A model generated the notes under the pieces. That model had not been told where the DNA came from and searched no databases. It saw only the letters and a list, made by a program, of their open reading frames with translations. A stretch of DNA of 64,000 nt from an uncultured Halomicronema sp. (GTDB lineage Bacteria; Cyanobacteriota; Cyanobacteriia; Phormidesmidales; Phormidesmidaceae): positions 1 to 64,000 of the forward strand of contig CALCCA010000006.1 in assembly GCA_937899725.1 (NCBI GenBank). The letters run 5' to 3'. How positions within the stretch are numbered: position 1 is the first letter of the stretch; each line of letters opens with the position of its first letter. This document shows, in pieces, positions 7,508 through 59,695 of this stretch. Made by a program: the position numbers and the translations under genes.

Positions 7508-8293
7508 CTACGGCTCGGTTTGCAAGGTTTGAGGATGCAGATAAGTAATCATCTGATCGATGCCGCGCTGAATCCGGCGGGTTACGGTCATCGGGCTGAC
7601 GCCAATACGCTCGGCGACCTCTTTGCGTGACAGACCATTGAAGAACACAAACTCAATCGCAGAGCGAGTTTTATCTTCGAGCTGGGCCATAGCCCGCTGG
7701 AGCTGCTGACGGTCTTCTTCTAGCAGCTGCATCCGCTGATAGTAGGTGTCAGGTAGCGTGTCACCCAGCGTGATATTGGAGTCAATTTGCTGACACACAG
7801 TGGCGTCTAAGCTCAGTGGCATCCGGTTTTTGTTGGCCATCTTGACTTCGCGCCATTCTTCTACAGAGACGCTTAATGCAGTGGCCATCTCATAGTCGTT
7901 CGGTTGGCGTCCCAACTGGCGAATCATTTCGCCCTGACACTTTTGGGCCTCTTTTTGTAGATCTTGCCAGCGACGGGGAATCTTAACGGTAGTACCGCGA
8001 TCGCGCAGGAAGTGAAGCATCTCACCGCGAATGTAGGGCACGGCAAAGGAGCTAAAGGCACAGCCTTGAACGGGGTTAAACCGCTCAATGGCGCGGATGA
8101 GACCGAGATAGCCAATCTGTTCCAGATCTTCGTAGGGTTCTGAACATTGATGACTGACACGGTGGGCAATCTTTCTGACCAGACCAGCATTGAGGCGAAC
8201 GAGGCGGTTGCGCAGTTCAACGGAAGGCTTATTTTTATAGGCGATAAGCATTTCCATGCCGCGAGAGCGAAGCGAAGAAGTCGGGTTAGCCAT
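7508..8293 (-). CDS. sigF: RNA polymerase sigma factor SigF-like (group 3)
   Basis: A 261-residue alternative sigma factor. Region 2 spans about 28-100, with YEDLEQIGYLGLIRAIERF and FSSFAVPYIRGEMLHFLRDR. A region 3 helix set follows from about 110 (PRRWQDLQKEAQK), then region 4 with the helix-turn-helix GLSRKEVAERIGVSPMTVTR near 222-241. The domain layout and length match cyanobacterial SigF, which in Synechocystis controls pilus and motility genes. That role is inferred here, not shown. The ATG at 8293 starts MANPTSSLRSRGMEML. A 573-bp upstream gap leaves room for complex control. Confidence 0.88.
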   Translation of the reverse strand: MANPTSSLRSRGMEMLIAYKNKPSVELRNRLVRLNAGLVRKIAHRVSHQCSEPYEDLEQIGYLGLIRAIERFNPVQGCAFSSFAVPYIRGEMLHFLRDRGTTVKIPRRWQDLQKEAQKCQGEMIRQLGRQPNDYEMATALSVSVEEWREVKMANKNRMPLSLDATVCQQIDSNITLGDTLPDTYYQRMQLLEEDRQQLQRAMAQLEDKTRSAIEFVFFNGLSRKEVAERIGVSPMTVTRRIQRGIDQMITYLHPQTLQTEP

Positions 8294-8866
8294 TTCTTAG
8301 AATTCCCTTGCGTTTTAGAGCGTCAGTTTTAGGAAACTTGTCTTATTCTCGACGTCTACACCTCTTGTAACCATCGTTGTTATACGGGACTCTCAGTAGG
8401 CCTCTGAAAAAGTCTCCGTATATCCTCGGAATACACTTTCAAAGAGAATTGTTCAAGCCTGGTATCAGCGGGTTTCAGCTCTCTTCACACAACGAAAAAA
8501 CGTCAGTAAATACGCTCAAATGCGAGTTTTAACATCTTTTTTTCCGGAATTTATGGGGTTTGATCTATCGATTCTTTAACTGTTTCGATAGATATATGAA
8601 GTGTTTGCGAGGTTGTTTCTCTTGAGTTGACAACTTAAAACTTCTCTTCAATGGGACAGTGATAAAAATCGGAACGCAACGAAACGAGTTTTGAACAGCC
8701 TGGTTCTCAACCTGACGACTGGGTACTTTGACATCCAGTTATCCAAAGCCTTTTGTCTCTATTTCTGAACTCCACAACGATTCACTGAGTTGAGCTGAGG
8801 AGTGATCGAGTCCCCAGACCCTAGAATTGCCAAATGACTGATGCAGATCGGCAATCGAGCCTCTAA
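8294..8866. other. Intergenic region upstream of sigF
   Basis: This 573-bp AT-richer stretch lies between sigF and the LysR gene, both on the reverse strand. It should contain the sigF promoter and the LysR gene's 3' end. I see no convincing ORF, RNA motif or long repeat in it. Confidence 0.5.
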
Positions 8867-9727
8867 TCAGCCCTCACGCAACATCGAGATAAAAGCATCA
8901 ACGGCGGGTGAATGGGGGGTTTGGGCCAGAGTCGCCACGCCGATCACTCGTTCTAACGGTTCGGGCAGCGATCGCACCTGCACCCCATGAGGAATCGGCA
9001 AGGCGGCCAACCGGGGCAAAATGGCCGCGCCAAGACCCTGAGCAACCATGCTGACAATGGTCGAATCTTCTTTGATGACGTAGGCGACCTGCAGTTTTTG
9101 GCCCCAGCGGTTCCAGTGTTCGCGCACGACGCTCGTACATTCGGCGTAGTTGTACAGCACGAAATCCTGGTTCGACAGATCCGGCCAGGTGAGCCGCCGA
9201 GGGAGCGATCGCCCCTTTTTGGGCAATAGCGCGACGTACTCATCGCGGGCGACTTCCCAAACGCGAAACTCTTCAGAGCGCGGCAGTGGCACTAGCCCCA
9301 TGTCAACCTGGCCCTCACGCAGCGCTTGCTCCACCCCGGCGGGTTCAAGTTCTGACAAGCTGACGTCCACTCGCGGAAACTGTTCACAGAAGCGCGCGAG
9401 CACCGGCGGCAGTAGGTGAGTCGCCGCGCTGCGAAACGAACCGATGCGCAGGCTCCCCCCGTACAGTCCCTTTTCTAAATTGACCTCATACTCAATCAGT
9501 TCACGCAGGTCTAGAATTTGCTGGGCATGCTGCAGCACTCGCTCACCGAGCTGAGTGGGTTTGGCCCCAAAGCGCCCTCGCTTCAACAGCGGTGCCCCCA
9601 GCTCCTTTTCTAACGCGGCGATCGCCCGACTTACCGCCGCCTGAGACGTATCCAACACCAGGGCGGCATGGGAAAAAGTTCCTTCGCGAATAATCGTTGT
9701 CAGCACCGTCAAGTGGTGAATGTTCAT
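8867..9727 (-). CDS. LysR family transcriptional regulator
   Basis: A 286-residue LTTR. The winged helix-turn-helix occupies about 1-60 (MNIHHLTVLTTIIREGTF...SQAAVSRAIAALEKELGAPL). A linker helix and a periplasmic-binding-protein-like effector domain (about 90-286) follow. It is transcribed divergently from the cupin-like gene at 9844, with only 116 bp between the starts. A TTCG-N5-CGAA palindrome sits directly upstream of its start codon. By family precedent it probably autoregulates and controls the divergent gene. The effector is unknown. Confidence 0.9.
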   Translation of the reverse strand: MNIHHLTVLTTIIREGTFSHAALVLDTSQAAVSRAIAALEKELGAPLLKRGRFGAKPTQLGERVLQHAQQILDLRELIEYEVNLEKGLYGGSLRIGSFRSAATHLLPPVLARFCEQFPRVDVSLSELEPAGVEQALREGQVDMGLVPLPRSEEFRVWEVARDEYVALLPKKGRSLPRRLTWPDLSNQDFVLYNYAECTSVVREHWNRWGQKLQVAYVIKEDSTIVSMVAQGLGAAILPRLAALPIPHGVQVRSLPEPLERVIGVATLAQTPHSPAVDAFISMLREG

Positions 9728-9738
9728 GACGACATTCT

Positions 9739-9753
9739 ATTCGGTTATCGAAT
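9739..9753. promoter_or_regulatory. LysR-box (T-N11-A palindrome)
   Basis: ATTCGGTTATCGAAT is a 5+5+5 palindrome with the T-N11-A spacing that LysR proteins recognise. It lies 12-26 bp upstream of the LysR start codon, in the divergent intergenic region shared with the cupin-like gene. Confidence 0.6.
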
Positions 9754-9843
9754 GGATGGGACTCGCGGATTGTTTTGATTCTCTGTGAAAGAAGGCGTTA
9801 CCTTGACGGGCAAGCTGATACATGCTGATTGCGACAGGTTGCC

Positions 9844-49643: not shown

Positions 49644-49764
49644 TAAGTAGTTGGGCTAATTCAAATGTAGGATGGGTTAGCGATAGCGTAACCCATGCGG
49701 GCGTTGGGTTTCGTCCCTTAACCTCAATCTACAGTGTCTTACGTTTAATTGGAACTTCCTACTT
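49644..49764. repeat. Repeat family C, copy 1
   Basis: A 121-bp element with TAAGTAG and CTACTT ends and an internal palindrome GGGTTAGCGATAGCGTAACCC. It is the near-identical reverse complement of the copy at 54330-54451. The palindromic block is a known type of cyanobacterial interspersed repeat. Non-coding. Confidence 0.82.
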
Positions 49765-52062: not shown

Positions 52063-52425
52063 CTATGAGTCGGTGGCAGAGGTTTCCAATGCTCGCAACT
52101 GGGAACTAAAATATCCCCCGATGCCTACTAGCGGCATTGCCATCGCACAGGCCGTGTACAACACCGCCATGCCTGCACCGACGCCACTGCCAAAACTGGG
52201 GGCCAACCAGCCCGTCAACTAGCTCCCAGAAATCATGGCAGGCTCTAGAATTTGATCGGCTAACGGCCCGGCGAGCAGCACCGCCAGGGCACTCACTCCT
52301 TGCAGCACCAAATCATTGGCGGCAAACACCCGGCCCTGATGTTCCGGCTGAATCTGAGTCATCCACAGGGCCGTTTCCGAACTGCCCAGCAGTGGAAAAT
52401 TGAGAGAGGAACAAAACTGAACGGG
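52063..52425 (-). pseudogene. Truncated MFS transporter remnant
   Basis: The reverse strand translates as VQFCSSLNFPLLGSSETALW, then GRVFAANDLVLQG and LAGPLADQILEPAMISG, continuing past an in-frame TAG to GAGMAVLYTACA. This is collinear with the last 120 or so residues of the intact MFS exporter at 58270-59535 (CSSLNFPLLGSCRSALWMAQ...). The first two thirds of the gene are missing and a stop interrupts the rest, so it is dead. It ends at TAG 52063-52065. Confidence 0.82.
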
Positions 52426-52834
52426 AATTCAGACAGCGGGCGATAGATGGGCTCGCCATGCTGGAGAGACGATAGACCCACACCAAAACCTGCCAAATCC
52501 CAGTGATTATCTTGACAGCTAAAGCCCAATCCAGCGAATGGCGTCAGTTTATTCAACTCAACGTCTTGCTGGTCATCACCAAACCGGACTATCTCCTCGT
52601 CCCGTTGAACCAAATCCCTCCTGCCTTTACCCATGAGCTCTAGCCGATGGTCAAAGGCAAAAGGTAAAAACAACGGTAAAAGACAAAAGCAATGAATATA
52701 GCTGTTGAATTCATAGGATTTGTCCTACTTACAGGACACCATGTCGAGCTTTGCGGGTTTGTGTAGACCTGTGCTCTTGCCGCAGGGTGCTCCATAGGGT
52801 TCTGCCCCACCCACAGAATATTTCAGATGCTTGC
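52426..52834. other. Intergenic region with a possible gene remnant
   Basis: The reverse-strand frame over about 52430-52670 reads DDQQDVELNKLTPFAGLGFSCQ and looks more protein-like than random, but I do not recognise it, and it runs into the MFS remnant in a different frame. It may be another broken gene. The rest shows nothing. Confidence 0.3.
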
Positions 52835-53071
52835 TTAAGTCGCCACCTCAGTTCGAGCTTCAGTACTCAGCACGAGTAGCGTGTCACCGTGGCAACCAAA
52901 TACCATCACCGGCGTATCTGGCACCAAAATGTAGCCCGCCTGAGGAATACAAAGACGTGCCTTCCAAGTGACGCCCATCACCCTGACATGGCCTGAAATC
53001 GGCCCAGCAATCACACTTTCCACTACACCGTACATAATCGGGTTCCAAACTGTAATAGGAGTCTGTTCCAT
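52835..53071 (-). CDS. Small NfeD-like OB-fold protein
   Basis: A 78-residue protein without membrane segment. GVVESVIAGPISGHVRVMGVTWKARL resembles the G.V..I.P.G.V...G..W.A pattern of NfeD C-terminal OB folds. TPVMVFGCHGDTLLVLS is the closing strand pair. Free-standing short versions like this occur in cyanobacteria. The ATG at 53071 is chosen over a GTG three codons earlier. Function unknown; no stomatin/flotillin gene is adjacent. Confidence 0.55.
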   Translation of the reverse strand: MEQTPITVWNPIMYGVVESVIAGPISGHVRVMGVTWKARLCIPQAGYILVPDTPVMVFGCHGDTLLVLSTEARTEVAT

Positions 53072-53893
53072 GGTTTCCACACAAAATTCCTAAACACACT
53101 GATTTTGAAAATCCCTCAGACCGCAATCGCAAACTGTGAGGCCACCTCGGCGCTGCTATAGAGCTGTCAGAAGCTCAAAAGTCACGAGAACACACATCGA
53201 TCTGACCTTCCTGGTACTGGCAGCGTCAAATCACGAAAGTAGAACTTACGCATCGCCCCTTTGCCTCTCCTCAGCTTGGAGGAAAGTGCATCCGGCTTCC
53301 CCAATATTGGGGAGCGAGGGGCTAAAACTGGACACCACTGCGTTAATCCTGAAAGCGTTGACACCGGGACTCGTACTGACCAGACAGCAGCACCGAACTT
53401 CAGGCAAGTCGTTGGCTTTGAGACAACAATAACTTACCCCAAAATATTTTGGGGTAAGTTATTGTTACAAATAATTTACCTGGAAGAATGATTGTGCTTG
53501 TAGACTAAGGGGGCAGGAAAATTGGCACCGGTGAAAAATCCATCTAGATCGCCAACTGCTGAGGACGTGACCGCAATCACGTCAGCTCACTATCGGGTGC
53601 ATAGAGTTTGCTGTATCTACCAAGTGCGAGCTTCTTCGCGGTTGCTTGGCGCCACAGATTGCCAAATTAGAGACTACGCTAACCCCATACCGTTCAATAC
53701 AATTCCTCCCATCAGGAAACTTCTAGCAACAAGACGATGACATCAAGCTTGGGGCTCACGCACGGGCCACTAACACCAGTCAGTGGGGGTGTTGCCTAGA
53801 TTTCCTTAGCCTAGGGATGAGACAGGACAAAAGCTGGAGGCAATTACATCAGTCCTGAAGCTAAATTTGATTACCTAGCTGATATTCAGACAC
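53072..53893. other. Intergenic region with a 42-bp palindrome
   Basis: An 822-bp stretch without an accepted gene. Short frames exist but none resembles a protein. It contains the exceptional palindrome at 53425-53466, listed separately, and the presumed promoter of the XRE gene at its right end. Confidence 0.5.
53425..53466. repeat. Perfect 42-bp palindrome
   Basis: Each 21-base half is AACAATAACTTACCCCAAAA plus T; the two halves are exact reverse complements with no spacer. It could extrude a cruciform, act as a bidirectional terminator, or mark a former insertion site. No other copy was seen in the window. Confidence 0.85.
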
Positions 53894-54220
53894 ATGAGCA
53901 ACCTGGATAACACACACTCAGAGCAATGGGACCTGACTAAACCCAAACTGAAAGAGCTGCGAGAAAATCTGCAAATTACGCAGAGGCAACTCTCTGACAA
54001 GTTGGGCGTCACTGAAAATACGATTGCTAATTGGGAAAACGGTCGTAGTATCAGCAAATGGCTCTATCAGATCAAGCTGCTGTGTCAAGCACTTGACTGC
54101 TCTTTTGAAGAGCTGACTGAAGACCTATCGACTCCCCTTTCGGCAGAAAATACGAACCCTTTTTCTTCCCTGAGAAAGGATTACCAGGACGCTATCAAAG
54201 AAATGGAGGATTTGCCGTAG
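53894..54220 (+). CDS. XRE family helix-turn-helix regulator
   Basis: A 108-residue DNA-binding protein. The HTH is LKELRENLQITQRQLSDKLGVTENTIANWENGR (about 19-52), followed by SISKWLYQIKLLCQALDCSFEEL typical of Cro/CI helices 4-5. The C-terminal about 30 residues are a charged tail. It precedes the unknown 648-residue gene at 54503 on the same strand, with a family C repeat between them. It may regulate that gene, but cotranscription is uncertain. Confidence 0.88.
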   Translation: MSNLDNTHSEQWDLTKPKLKELRENLQITQRQLSDKLGVTENTIANWENGRSISKWLYQIKLLCQALDCSFEELTEDLSTPLSAENTNPFSSLRKDYQDAIKEMEDLP

Positions 54221-54329
54221 ATTACTAAATATAAGACGGGTTAGCTGATTTCTAATTCTTGGTCGAGAGAACAATTTAACGGCATCAGCGATTGGACATC
54301 TTCACTTATTCGAGTCTGATTTTTTGAGT

Positions 54330-54451
54330 TAAGTAGGAAGTTTCAATTAAACGTAAGACACTGTAGGTTGAGGTTGAGGAACGAAACCCAACGCCTGCAT
54401 GGGTTACGCTATCGCTAACCCATCCTACATTTGAATGAGCCCAGCTACTTA
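54330..54451. repeat. Repeat family C, copy 2 (inverted)
   Basis: A 122-bp element bounded by TAAGTAG and CTACTTA. It is the near-identical reverse complement of the copy at 49644-49764 and lies between the XRE gene and the unknown gene. A TTG-started extension of the latter would begin within it, which argues for the downstream ATG. Confidence 0.82.
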
Positions 54452-54502
54452 ATAGCAACGGGAAGATGCACCGTTCAGTTTCTTTATTTGTTTAGTTCTA
54501 AA

Positions 54503-56449
54503 ATGTTCGCTCAGCGCAGTCATAAATACCTAATTGATGCTGCAACCATCATTGCAGGGCTAGAAGGCCAAGAAGGCTCTCTGGAATGCGCCTGCTTGGA
54601 TATTCTCTGGACGCTACTTGAATCAAACCAGATTGAGGTCATGATTCAGTCTGAAGAATGGAACAACTTGAGGAGTCATATCCACAAAAAAATCAAAGAG
54701 CCTGAATGTGCTGAGCAGCTCTTAAATCGGATTAGAAAAAATATTAAACCCGTACAAGAAGGGAAAGACGAAAGGGTCAAGCTCTTATACTTCACTACCC
54801 TGTTTCAGAACGCCCATCAAGATATCGTTTCTATTGAAGATATCGTTTCTCAGCATAGTCCCAAAGCCTCCTACAACAGTGCGAATGCCACCATCGAATC
54901 TCTGGTTTTTCTTTTCTCTGTTTGGTTGACTAAAGAAATTTTCGGCATTGAATTTAGCAGTATCGAAAACCTTGTTGATAATGTAGAAGACTTCTTAAAT
55001 CCTGACGACCTGAGACAAGCAGGTTTTTATAGGGCTGGCGAGGGAGATATTCATCAGAAAAGCTTGCTTTTCTCAGCTGGTGAACTCTCAGGTCAAGAGC
55101 TAAGTGAAAAGCTAGAACAGTATTATCTAGAAGGCAATTTGCCGACCGCCTCTGTCGTAGAATCACTAGCCGATGATTCAGGGCAATTGCTGGTTACACC
55201 TGGTTCAACCCGAGGTTTGGTTCCATCTAGTCAAGAACTCGCTCATCTACTACTTAACAGTCCAGAGCAGACGCTCTCGCTTATTCAAATTGCTTCTGGA
55301 AGTCACGATATGCCGATTAACAGGGCCTCGGATGGAGGATCGGATGGAGATGCCCTACACGCCAGTAGCTCTGTTTTTTATCAGGGCGATGAGCTGTCAG
55401 CGCGATCTCCCAGCTTTGATTACCGATATCTCATTTCCAAGGCGTCCTCGGAGAGCGATGCCGATGGCAAAACTACAGCTGATGACCAAACTACCGGTGA
55501 AGATGATGAACAAGAGACTGAAGACACTTTGGACCCGTCACCCCCATCAGGATTTACCCCCTTCAAAGATTTTGACCGTAACGACCATCCTCTGATCGAT
55601 GCGCCTTCAACGCCTGACAAGCCGACTCAGCCATCGCCAATATTGGGTCAGCCTGATCCAGCGACAGAACCTGATGCAACTGCCCGTGCTGCGAATGCCT
55701 CATCTTTTGGATTTGTTAGAGATGTTGATTCTACCGATCACTCAACCGATGACAGCCATGGCGATTGGATTCATGTGCGCATTTATGATGCCGAGGGTCT
55801 GTCAAATTGGTTATCGCTTGATACTAATAATGACGGAAATGCTGATTGGAAAGCTTTCTATACTAAGGATGAGGTCGGTGATTTTGTAAAACAGTCTACT
55901 AATAGGCTGGAGGACGAAACTGCTAGTCAGATTGATTTGCTCGAACAAGAACTGACTACCCTTCTAGATGATATTGACAAAGATTCGGTCTTTGATCTGT
56001 CTATTCCTACTGTCTCATTCAATGAACAGTTGCTCGAGCAAGTGATCGACGAAATTGGCACTGACTTTTTGGAAGTTTTAGACCATGAAGTCCCAGTAAG
56101 CTCTAAAGGTCAAAAGCAGCCTGGTAGAAATGCACTATCTCAAGCCGCCGTCGATGTAGATTTCTCAGAAAGCACTTCTGGCCTTCTGCTCATGGCCGAT
56201 GACTCCCTGCTGCAAGGAGGCCACGAAATAGTTGACAACCCTGAACGCTCTCTACCGTCGGAAAAGCTGGAAGATCCAATTGGCACTCAGCAATTTTCCA
56301 TGCTGTTTCAGCATCAGTCAGAAAGCTTTCAATTCGGCACGGGGCTACATTCGCTGCTCGATATAGACTCTTCTCATCAGCCTAAAGAATCATTGATTTC
56401 TGTTCCTAGCTTGGCTAGCTCTGGTGGCCCAACACTGTCAATGATGTAG
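54503..56449 (+). CDS. Large AT-rich protein of unknown function
   Basis: A 648-residue protein I do not recognise. Residues 1-180 are mainly helical (SHKYLIDAATIIAGLEGQEG, ESLVFLFSVWLTKEIFG); the LIDAATII start faintly recalls PIN-like nucleases. About 180-290 is helical with polar repeats. About 290-420 is an acidic, Ser/Asp/Pro-rich linker. About 430-470 has WIHVRIYDAEGLSNWLSLDT followed by NNDGNADWK, a possible Ca-binding loop like dockerin or thrombospondin type 3. The rest is low-complexity and acidic. There is no signal peptide or membrane segment. GC content is well below that of neighbours, suggesting transfer. It follows an XRE regulator. Confidence 0.6.
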   Translation: MFAQRSHKYLIDAATIIAGLEGQEGSLECACLDILWTLLESNQIEVMIQSEEWNNLRSHIHKKIKEPECAEQLLNRIRKNIKPVQEGKDERVKLLYFTTLFQNAHQDIVSIEDIVSQHSPKASYNSANATIESLVFLFSVWLTKEIFGIEFSSIENLVDNVEDFLNPDDLRQAGFYRAGEGDIHQKSLLFSAGELSGQELSEKLEQYYLEGNLPTASVVESLADDSGQLLVTPGSTRGLVPSSQELAHLLLNSPEQTLSLIQIASGSHDMPINRASDGGSDGDALHASSSVFYQGDELSARSPSFDYRYLISKASSESDADGKTTADDQTTGEDDEQETEDTLDPSPPSGFTPFKDFDRNDHPLIDAPSTPDKPTQPSPILGQPDPATEPDATARAANASSFGFVRDVDSTDHSTDDSHGDWIHVRIYDAEGLSNWLSLDTNNDGNADWKAFYTKDEVGDFVKQSTNRLEDETASQIDLLEQELTTLLDDIDKDSVFDLSIPTVSFNEQLLEQVIDEIGTDFLEVLDHEVPVSSKGQKQPGRNALSQAAVDVDFSESTSGLLLMADDSLLQGGHEIVDNPERSLPSEKLEDPIGTQQFSMLFQHQSESFQFGTGLHSLLDIDSSHQPKESLISVPSLASSGGPTLSMM

Positions 56450-56642
56450 CGCTGCGCGATCGCTTGTTCTCTCCCCATAGCGCGGCAAGTAAGTTGTCCA
56501 GCTGTATCGCTTAATTCGAAGCAGACCACGCCACCACTGGAAACGTATTCATTAGGCCTGAAACGTAGGGGATGTAAGCCGCTATCAACGACCCTCTCCT
56601 ACCTGTCTAATTCCACGTGGCTGACCACTCGCTGGTGTTTCT

Positions 56643-57443
56643 TCAAGCATCGATTTTTCGTAATCGTTCGAGTCGTAACTGGTGCTCTGGGCTAAACAAA
56701 ACCTGAAAGGCGAGCAGAATCACGCTAATGCAAGCGAGCGCAGTACCTGCAGCTAGGGTGAAGTAAATGATGATTTGATAGCGTACTGCGTTGGTTGGAT
56801 TCACCCCTGCCAGCATTTGCCCCGTCATCATGCCGGGTAAACTCACCAGTCCCAACACCATCATTGAGTTGATGGTAGGAATCATCCCAGTACGCAGAGC
56901 TTCTTTAAGCGTTTCATTCGCGGCTTCCCAACGGGTTGCTCCTAGCGCTAAAAGGGATTCAATCTGCGATCGCCGACTGACCAAATCTTCCATTAATCGG
57001 TCCAATGCTAAAGATGTTCCGGTCAGCGCATTTCCCAAAACCATCCCCAATAGCGGAATCACGTATTGCGGGTCATACCAAGGATGAATGTGAATAATGC
57101 CTTCTACCAATAACCCCGTCACAAAACCACTGGCTGCCAGAATTGAAACGAAACTGTTCCAGTAGATGGAAGGGAAGCGACGGCGGGTGCGGTTGACCGA
57201 AGCATTGCCAGCGATCGCACTCATCATGAACACTAACAGCAACACCCAAAGGGGATTATCCAAGGCGAAAATCCAACCCAACACATATCCCACTAAGAGC
57301 AGCTGTACCACCATCCGCAATGCAGCAATGCCTAATTTTCTGGCTAAGCCTAGCCGTAAACCCAGCGAGAGAGCAATGTTGATCAAAATTAGAGCGGCAG
57401 CAAGGGCCAGCTGCCAATTGTCAATGGGAATGTAGTTGTTCAT
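56643..57443 (-). CDS. fetB: FetB, iron-export ABC permease (UPF0014)
   Basis: A 266-residue membrane protein with about seven helices. LRMVVQLLLVGYVLGWIFAL, NASVNRTRRRFPSIY, PLLGMVLGNALTGTSLALDRL and MIPTINSMMVLGLVSLPGMMTGQMLAG are the family's conserved blocks. E. coli FetAB exports iron and protects against oxidative stress. It starts 3 bp after the fetA stop and is therefore in the same operon. The surrounding siderophore genes support an iron-related role. Confidence 0.9.
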   Translation of the reverse strand: MNNYIPIDNWQLALAAALILINIALSLGLRLGLARKLGIAALRMVVQLLLVGYVLGWIFALDNPLWVLLLVFMMSAIAGNASVNRTRRRFPSIYWNSFVSILAASGFVTGLLVEGIIHIHPWYDPQYVIPLLGMVLGNALTGTSLALDRLMEDLVSRRSQIESLLALGATRWEAANETLKEALRTGMIPTINSMMVLGLVSLPGMMTGQMLAGVNPTNAVRYQIIIYFTLAAGTALACISVILLAFQVLFSPEHQLRLERLRKIDA

Positions 57444-58269: not shown

Positions 58270-59535
58270 CTAAAGCTGTTTAACCTTTGCTCTGAGGGAT
58301 GGGACAAAGAAACCGCTGATGCCAAGGAGGAGCAGTGCTGCGGAACATGCCGTATAGAGTACCGCCATGCCAGCACCCGCACCGCTGCCAAATAGAGGAC
58401 TGAGCCAATTGGCCAATCCACTATTGGACATCATGGCTGGCTCAAACAGGCGGTCTGCTAGTGGCCCTGCTAGCCCTGTAGCCAAAATGCTGGCGACCTG
58501 CGTCACGAGAGAATTGGCCGCAAAGACTCTTCCCTGAATATCTGGCGCAACTTGGGCCATCCACAAGGCGCTGCGGCAGCTGCCTAAGAGGGGAAAGTTG
58601 AGCGATGAGCAGACTTGGGCGGGCACCCAAACGGGGAGCGATCGCCCCAAGCCAAAGACCAATTTGCTGAGTCCTGCCCCCATGTATCCGGCTAATAGGC
58701 CCACAACCCGACGCTTGGGGCCACCCCAAAGACTCACTATCACGGCTCCGACCACCCCACCCACGCCAGCGGCCGCCGAGACACTCGCGAGGGCCTGAGC
58801 ACTGCCGCCGGTACGCGCCAGAATCATGGGCTGATAGAGCGCTGACCCCAGATCGTGGGCAAACACAAACAGGAGGGTGAAGAGGAGCAGCGCTTTGAGC
58901 TGGGGCTGCTGCCAGAGATGGCGCCAGCCAAACGTGAGCTGCCGAGTCCAGTGCTCTGACGGCGATTGCGTTGGTGACGGTTGGGGCATAGGGGCTAGCA
59001 GCAGCGTGATAAATGCGATCGCAAAGGTGACCAAGTCAATGCTCACAATGCCCGATAGCTGAATGACGGGATACAGCATTCCGGCTAGGGCGGGGGCAAA
59101 AATCTGTGAACCGTAATGCACGATCGCCCCCATACTGGCTGCCCGAGTGTATTGCTGCTGGGGCACTAATAGAGACAGTGAGGCCTGATAGGCCAAACTT
59201 TGAATTTGGCTAAAGCCCCCGGCCAGCATGGCAACCAAGTATAAGTGCCAAATCGCCAGCTGCTGGGTCAGGTAGAGGCCGCCAATGATCAGCGTGGCGA
59301 TCGCCGTCGTCGCATCCCCCAATAGCATCAGCGTTTTGCGATTAAAGCGATCGACAATTATCCCCGCAAATAGGGTGGTGGGAATTTGCGGTAGCTGAAA
59401 AAACAACCCCACCAGGGCCAAGGCCGTGGCGGAACCGGTAGCTTCCCAAGCCCATAGGGTGAGGGCAAAGAAGGTCATGCGGCTGCCAATGGCGGAGACT
59501 AGCTGACCGAACCAAATCAGAGTAAATGTGCGCAT
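58270..59535 (-). CDS. MFS transporter, EntS-like siderophore exporter candidate
   Basis: A 421-residue permease with about 12 helices. FTLIWFGQLVSAIGSRMTFFALTLWAWEATGSA is the first loop typical of the EntS/enterobactin-exporter branch, and FAGIIVDRFNRKTLMLLGD is the MFS motif-A equivalent. AALLLLGISGFFVPSLRAKV forms the end. The ATG at 59535 replaces a TTG one codon before. It lies between the siderophore-binding lipoprotein and fetAB, all leftward, supporting a siderophore role. A truncated relative is at 52063-52425. Confidence 0.82.
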   Translation of the reverse strand: MRTFTLIWFGQLVSAIGSRMTFFALTLWAWEATGSATALALVGLFFQLPQIPTTLFAGIIVDRFNRKTLMLLGDATTAIATLIIGGLYLTQQLAIWHLYLVAMLAGGFSQIQSLAYQASLSLLVPQQQYTRAASMGAIVHYGSQIFAPALAGMLYPVIQLSGIVSIDLVTFAIAFITLLLAPMPQPSPTQSPSEHWTRQLTFGWRHLWQQPQLKALLLFTLLFVFAHDLGSALYQPMILARTGGSAQALASVSAAAGVGGVVGAVIVSLWGGPKRRVVGLLAGYMGAGLSKLVFGLGRSLPVWVPAQVCSSLNFPLLGSCRSALWMAQVAPDIQGRVFAANSLVTQVASILATGLAGPLADRLFEPAMMSNSGLANWLSPLFGSGAGAGMAVLYTACSAALLLLGISGFFVPSLRAKVKQL

Positions 59536-59695
59536 CAAGGGGCTCAGTCAACGGTGTTTGAGAGGGACTGCGGACAACACAGCGCTCCGCCACAGTAGGA
59601 AAATCCCTCGGGGCTGGCTAGGGATTTTGCGCCCCAAACGCATCTTTTGGGGGCGCGGGTCTGCCCTTAGGATCGGGAACTTAATCATGTGCCGG

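Follow-up and report, generated by a model that had tools for sequence, protein, structure and literature searches.

The window, the whole 64,000-nucleotide stretch analyzed here, comes from contig C6 in a genome of 7.0 Mb that its relatives mark as cyanobacterial, and it contains a gene pair that is best explained as an autoregulated, toxin–antitoxin-like module. It would be composed of a small XRE regulator with a docking tail and a large pseudo-PIN partner that is possibly tethered to the membrane and may serve as a sensor. We give this composite reading about an even chance. At the level of sequence, it is carried by the conservation of the two genes as a pair, the predicted PIN fold and the loss of its catalytic residues, a locus-associated palindrome resembling an operator, and the co-occurrence of an XRE tail motif with the PIN domain.

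The conserved gene pair

53894–54220, + strand: XRE (Cro/C1-type HTH) regulator, 108 aa
54503–56449, + strand: large partner protein, 648 aa

Both ORFs are intact. The smaller protein matches HTH_3 (E = 2.2e-12; 47.2 bits against a curated cut-off of 23), and belongs to the XRE (Cro/C1-type) regulators, as the original prediction had it. The prediction of a 648-residue neighbor was also borne out by the ORF from ATG 54503 to 56449. This frame is already open from TTG 54431, and the orthologues start near ATG 54503. The large protein had been called an orphan; indeed no named family fits it, but full-length homologues exist in G005 (619 aa) and G058 (614 aa). In the family-level search (63 genomes, the same number as in the order-level search), the large protein was found in three genomes, namely, its own, G005, and G058, and these are the only known members of the window type. 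An XRE gene lies directly upstream in all three, with a spacing of 282 bp in the window and 51 and 20 bp in the other two. The association with an XRE gene, on which the original prediction had made itself depend, is conserved in these genomes. A small DNA-binding gene that adjoins its partner and is conserved with it as a pair is also a feature of type II toxin–antitoxin systems.

The two proteins are unevenly conserved. The XRE orthologues of G005 and G058 show 71–75% identity to the window copy, and for the large protein, identity over residues 1–180 is 34–48%, whereas the tails of the large proteins share ~25% identity pairwise and are hardly alignable. The pN value is well below pS (which is saturated) for both the XRE gene and the PIN part, so these seem to be under purifying selection, with the tail far freer.

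The PIN fold and its lost active site

54521–54856, + strand: PIN-fold domain, residues 7–118, catalytic acids not conserved (structure models, PDB matches, and alignment)

The N-terminus had been described as faintly PIN-like, with structure prediction proposed as a check, and this proved right as to the fold. In a model built from the three orthologues only, residues 7–118 show the strand and helix order of PIN domains, and the top structural matches are PIN/VapC chains (Z score 9.3, 100 residues, rmsd 3.3). A second model from 19 aligned sequences, PIN proteins included, agrees with it (Z score 9.8). The Pfam PIN_3 match stays below the cut-off. The N-terminal domain of the large protein is assigned a PIN fold by prediction. 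Profile comparison of the window family with the wider PIN family gave a weak link (E = 3e-4, probability 39%), and the place of the window family in the PIN group rests mainly on the fold, the gene order, and the XRE partner.

In the alignment, D12 of the window protein is replaced by Asn in G005 and Ser in G058, and the window family lacks both the D(F/Y)E-A and the T-D-F segments found in canonical PINs. The sequences form a series. Canonical PINs stand at one end, XRE partners with a D(F/Y)E-A-type segment follow, and the series ends with the window family and the f24 tail proteins, in which this segment has been lost. The PIN part of f24, searched as a sequence profile against solved structures, gave only weak matches to an unrelated enzyme. 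Because the catalytic acids are not kept, nuclease activity of the large protein is unlikely.

These observations bear on a true type II toxin–antitoxin or anti-phage pair, in which a PIN toxin is checked by the XRE protein and freed by stress or infection. Such a pair would suit the XRE–PIN layout, the predicted fold, and the putative autoregulatory palindrome and antitoxin-like XRE tail described below; relatives also carry CHAT proteins, which are known from conflict systems. The substitution of D12 and the missing acidic segments argue against it, as do a length of 648 aa and a hydrophobic helix unlike VapC and the lack of a PADLOC family for the large protein, and we consider this reading quite improbable. 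PADLOC gave no match for the large protein and generic HTH matches only for the XRE protein, and PHROGs likewise had no match for the large protein. The original prediction had suggested that the large protein could be the effector of a defense or stress module. This part of it is not supported: the catalytic residues are lost, neither PADLOC nor PHROGs offers a matching family, the anatomy is regulator-like, and the analysis turned up no evidence of defense or toxicity. A defense role may exist all the same, most plausibly at the relatives of this locus that encode CHAT proteins.

The hydrophobic helix and the acidic tail

54881–54943, + strand: hydrophobic helix, residues 127–147, possible membrane anchor (Kyte–Doolittle)
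55043–56446, + strand: acidic, cysteine-free, fast-evolving tail, residues 181–648 (25 K+R and 87 D+E)
55820–55846, + strand: calcium-loop-like DTNNDGNAD, residues 440–448
55970–55996, + strand: second loop-like segment DIDKDSVFD, residues 490–498 (DTDNDSIFD in G005)

Residues 127–147 are helical in both structure models. Their Kyte–Doolittle peak is 1.43 in the window protein, which is borderline for a transmembrane helix, and 1.44 and 1.86 in the orthologues. A hydrophobic helix occurs at the same position in eight relatives and is unambiguously transmembrane only in L059 (2.94). The tail was modeled with very low confidence (pLDDT mostly <40), and for this reason weak β matches at residues 418–469 (Z score ~5) were set aside. 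Pfam, NCBIfam, PADLOC, and PHROGs contain no named family matching it. The DTNNDGNAD loop of the original prediction is present, and a second was found; two such motifs stand against a mean of 0.02 in shuffled sequence, and the G058 orthologue has none. RTX nonapeptide repeats (HemolysinCabind, PF00353) were not matched in the large protein.

Given its tail, the large protein might instead be exported or displayed at the surface, with the XRE protein as no more than its regulator. The acidic tail would then do the work, as in the RTX proteins encoded divergently beside several relatives, and the PIN-like part would be a leftover or an assembly domain. The acidic, cysteine-free composition resembles these RTX neighbors, loop-like motifs occur in both the window and G005 proteins, and divergent RTX genes lie beside the XRE gene in G058, G254, G213, and G189; these neighbors are a lead rather than proof because RTX repeats are common in these genomes and G213 and G189 belong to the same genus. 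However, the conserved part of the protein is the PIN domain and not the tail, and the XRE motif described below follows the PIN domain irrespective of the attached module. We regard a surface or exported product as unlikely, and prefer the regulator pair.

The palindrome upstream of the XRE gene

53425–53466, no strand: perfect 42-bp palindrome in the divergent intergenic region, proposed XRE operator
53434–53457: 24-bp palindrome core, TTACCCCAAAATATTTTGGGGTAA
52835–53080, − strand: divergent NfeD-like small ORF, 81 aa (NfeD match below the cut-off)

G005 has the core at the equivalent position, as does G058 with one mismatch. Elsewhere in these two genomes and its own, it does not occur at ≤3 mismatches, and no regulon sites were found. 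The spaced palindrome pattern was found in one other genome among the 388 of the class, at an unrelated gene. In relatives, CCTAAANNNNTTTAGG occurs ~50–370 bp upstream of the XRE gene, often twice, and the paired sites are 44–45 bp apart, or about four helical turns. Such a site with ≤1 mismatch is present at 10 of 16 loci, compared with 0.03 expected in Markov sequences. Across 17 genomes, all exact matches to the extended operator but one lie at these XRE loci. The exception (L112; G189, contig C68, 43728–43747) has a membrane protein and hypothetical proteins among its nearby ORFs. The window core fits the 16-bp register of the relatives' site, from which it differs by T-to-C changes placed symmetrically in the two arms. 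The palindrome of the window lies ~440 bp upstream of the XRE gene, farther than in relatives, and no second operator copy was found in the window family. Upstream of the L059 XRE gene, no site of this type was found. The conserved, locus-tied site suggests that the XRE protein may regulate its own gene with the palindrome as operator.

A terminator was considered for the palindrome and disfavored because the flanking genes diverge and the arms in the window meet without a loop. No known RNA family was found near the locus. On the far side of the palindrome, the window and G005 have an NfeD-like ORF in place of the RTX genes. The G005 counterpart is 58.5% identical by tblastn, and its NfeD match is also below the cut-off; it is uncertain whether this ORF is part of the module.

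The C-terminal motif of the XRE proteins

54155–54202, + strand: C-terminal XRE motif, residues 88–103, NPFSSLRKDYQDAIKE, proposed PIN-docking helix (co-occurs with a PIN neighbor)

In XRE proteins encoded adjacent to a PIN gene, the C-terminus is longer and contains a short motif once or twice (NPFSSLRKDYQ in the window). A motif expression matched 15 of the 18 XRE proteins with a PIN neighbor and none of the 11 without (p = 1e-5), a value that overstates the association because the pattern derives from these very sequences and the XRE proteins are related. On a tree of the HTH domains, five label changes are needed, two of them forced by well-supported branches. Among the three misses, L020 and L071 show a variant of the motif by eye, and L042 is a real exception; it is the same locus as L059, where a PIN domain is present with neither motif nor operator. 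At L047, the motif was seen first and no PIN gene was found downstream, and a profile search then gave a PIN ORF upstream on the same strand. The motif accompanies the PIN domain regardless of the module behind it, cytoplasmic-looking ones included.

Related XRE–PIN loci

XRE homologues, mostly with 37–51% identity, occur in 33 of the 388 genomes of the class-level search, including the own genome and the two that bear orthologues. About half of the homologue loci examined adjoin a PIN-domain protein, and ~17 XRE–PIN loci were found in the 388 cyanobacterial genomes. The PIN domain is followed by different modules. In L050, L052, L053, L056, and L057, it precedes a hydrophobic helix and an acidic or low-complexity tail, and in L071, it is joined to pentapeptide repeats. 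The L059 protein (G113, 7752–9794, − strand), encoded downstream of the XRE gene, combines a PIN domain, a strong transmembrane helix, TPR, and Peripla_BP_6, and has the appearance of a PIN domain joined to an extracytoplasmic sensor. In L049, L051, L054, L055, and L063, the XRE gene is followed by a PIN protein with a DUF1822-type C-terminus, which is Pfam-supported in L049 and weak in L054, and then by a CHAT-type protein; this arrangement could represent a conflict module equipped with an operator of its own. The PIN gene of L051 is split into two ORFs. The N-termini of the f24 and DUF1822-type proteins are related (hhalign E = 4e-9).

Other arrangements were also observed. The XRE domain is fused directly to pentapeptide repeats in L041 (G207, 508 aa) and to a uridine-kinase-like domain in L045 (G139, 282 aa). 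A scan of genome contigs with strict peptide patterns gave a locus of Oscillatoria sp. CS-180, a same-genus relative, as the sole match. Upstream of its XRE gene lies a 331-aa ORF (L060, 3459–4454, − strand) with repeats of the YLxxNPDVAxAVxxGxxxSxxEHYxxxGxxExR type and no Pfam family over the cut-off.

Genomic surroundings

52090–52428, − strand: MFS fragment, 113 aa, 65% identical to the intact MFS transporter
54330–54451, no strand: ~122-bp MITE-like interspersed repeat between the XRE and large genes, with ends TAAGTAG/CTACTTA
58270–59538, − strand: intact MFS transporter gene

The XRE–PIN module sits between the MFS fragment and the intact MFS gene. Besides this copy of the repeat, the genome contains at least seven others, which are 92–97% identical, and one of them is in the window at 49644–49764. 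The original prediction saw the gene pair as bracketed by repeats and a broken gene, and the repeat between the genes and the MFS fragment upstream agree with this. Its low-GC island is real as a dip (0.41–0.49 per kb from 53001 to 57000, compared with 0.51–0.63 in most of the window), but the low GC and the repeats are local features, involving an inserted repeat and an MFS remnant, with no sign of a mobile island. A mobile-island or plasmid gene was rejected, as there were no plasmid matches, and PHROGs gave generic regulators for the XRE protein and nothing for the large protein.

The same surroundings could mean that the locus is in decay in this strain, as the remnant of a system still functional in relatives. 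The repeat is inserted between the two genes, the MFS remnant is nearby, and the two divergent ORFs that lie between the NfeD-like ORF and the XRE gene in G005 (222 and 331 aa) have left no traces in the window. Yet both ORFs of the pair are open, selection on the XRE gene and the PIN part appears purifying, and the palindrome is perfect across 42 bp. A relic is, in our judgment, very improbable.

Comparison with known systems

The regulator pair resembles VapBC type II toxin–antitoxin systems in that a small DNA-binding protein is encoded upstream of a PIN-fold protein, a palindrome lies upstream, and a short C-terminal segment of the DNA-binding protein tracks the PIN partner. It differs in having an XRE protein where the usual antitoxins are RHH, AbrB, or Phd, and in a 648-aa partner with a hydrophobic helix, a long tail, and a PIN active site that is not kept. 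Membership in the type II systems is not claimed because of the active site. In the available text of Makarova et al. 2009 (PMC2701414), Xre is among the neighbors of PIN genes, with 67 cases; the PIN-Xre combination is called under-represented, Xre pairs with membrane proteins are set aside, and that text contains no operator, tail motif, or fused modules.

Another study (PMC8195603) describes cyanobacterial DUF1822 together with ECF sigma factor and caspase-type genes. Similarly, the sister XRE loci fuse a PIN domain to a DUF1822-type C-terminus with a CHAT protein adjoining. The window differs from these systems: DUF1822 is absent from the large protein in Pfam, and no CHAT-like gene adjoins the locus.

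A possible likeness in design exists with pairs of the FecI/FecR type, which are sigma/anti-sigma pairs in transmembrane signaling. In both, a membrane partner with a segment on the outside would hold a cytoplasmic regulator, an arrangement clear only in L059, and an XRE protein and a PIN fold here replace the sigma and anti-sigma domains.

Proposed mechanism

Here, we propose how the regulator pair could operate. The XRE protein would bind the palindrome upstream of its own gene and control its own operon and perhaps the divergent gene too. Its short C-terminal helix may dock on the PIN-fold domain, by analogy with the tail of an antitoxin on a VapC toxin. Without its catalytic acids, the PIN domain is probably a binding or regulatory domain rather than an RNase. 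Through the hydrophobic helix and the acidic tail, the complex may be anchored at the membrane, and the fast-evolving tail would lie outside, possibly as a calcium-binding sensor or a surface segment. A signal at the outside segment may then alter the occupancy of the operator by the XRE protein.

More tentatively, and with well under an even chance of being right, the loci may represent a new class of transmembrane gene-control circuits in cyanobacteria, in which a dead PIN domain is a portable adaptor that holds an XRE protein and is joined to interchangeable sensor or output modules (a surface tail, a periplasmic-binding domain, pentapeptide repeats, or a CHAT protease). The circuit would be sigma/anti-sigma-like and made of toxin–antitoxin parts. 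Term searches of the literature, in which few subscription journals were covered, returned no description of the operator, the XRE tail motif, or this set of architectures. If the proposal is true, a toxin–antitoxin-like pair has been domesticated, with a nuclease fold that keeps its grip on a DNA-binding partner and loses its active site. It would also offer a concrete operator and a concrete docking peptide, together with a key to the partners of numerous cyanobacterial XRE genes that lack annotation.
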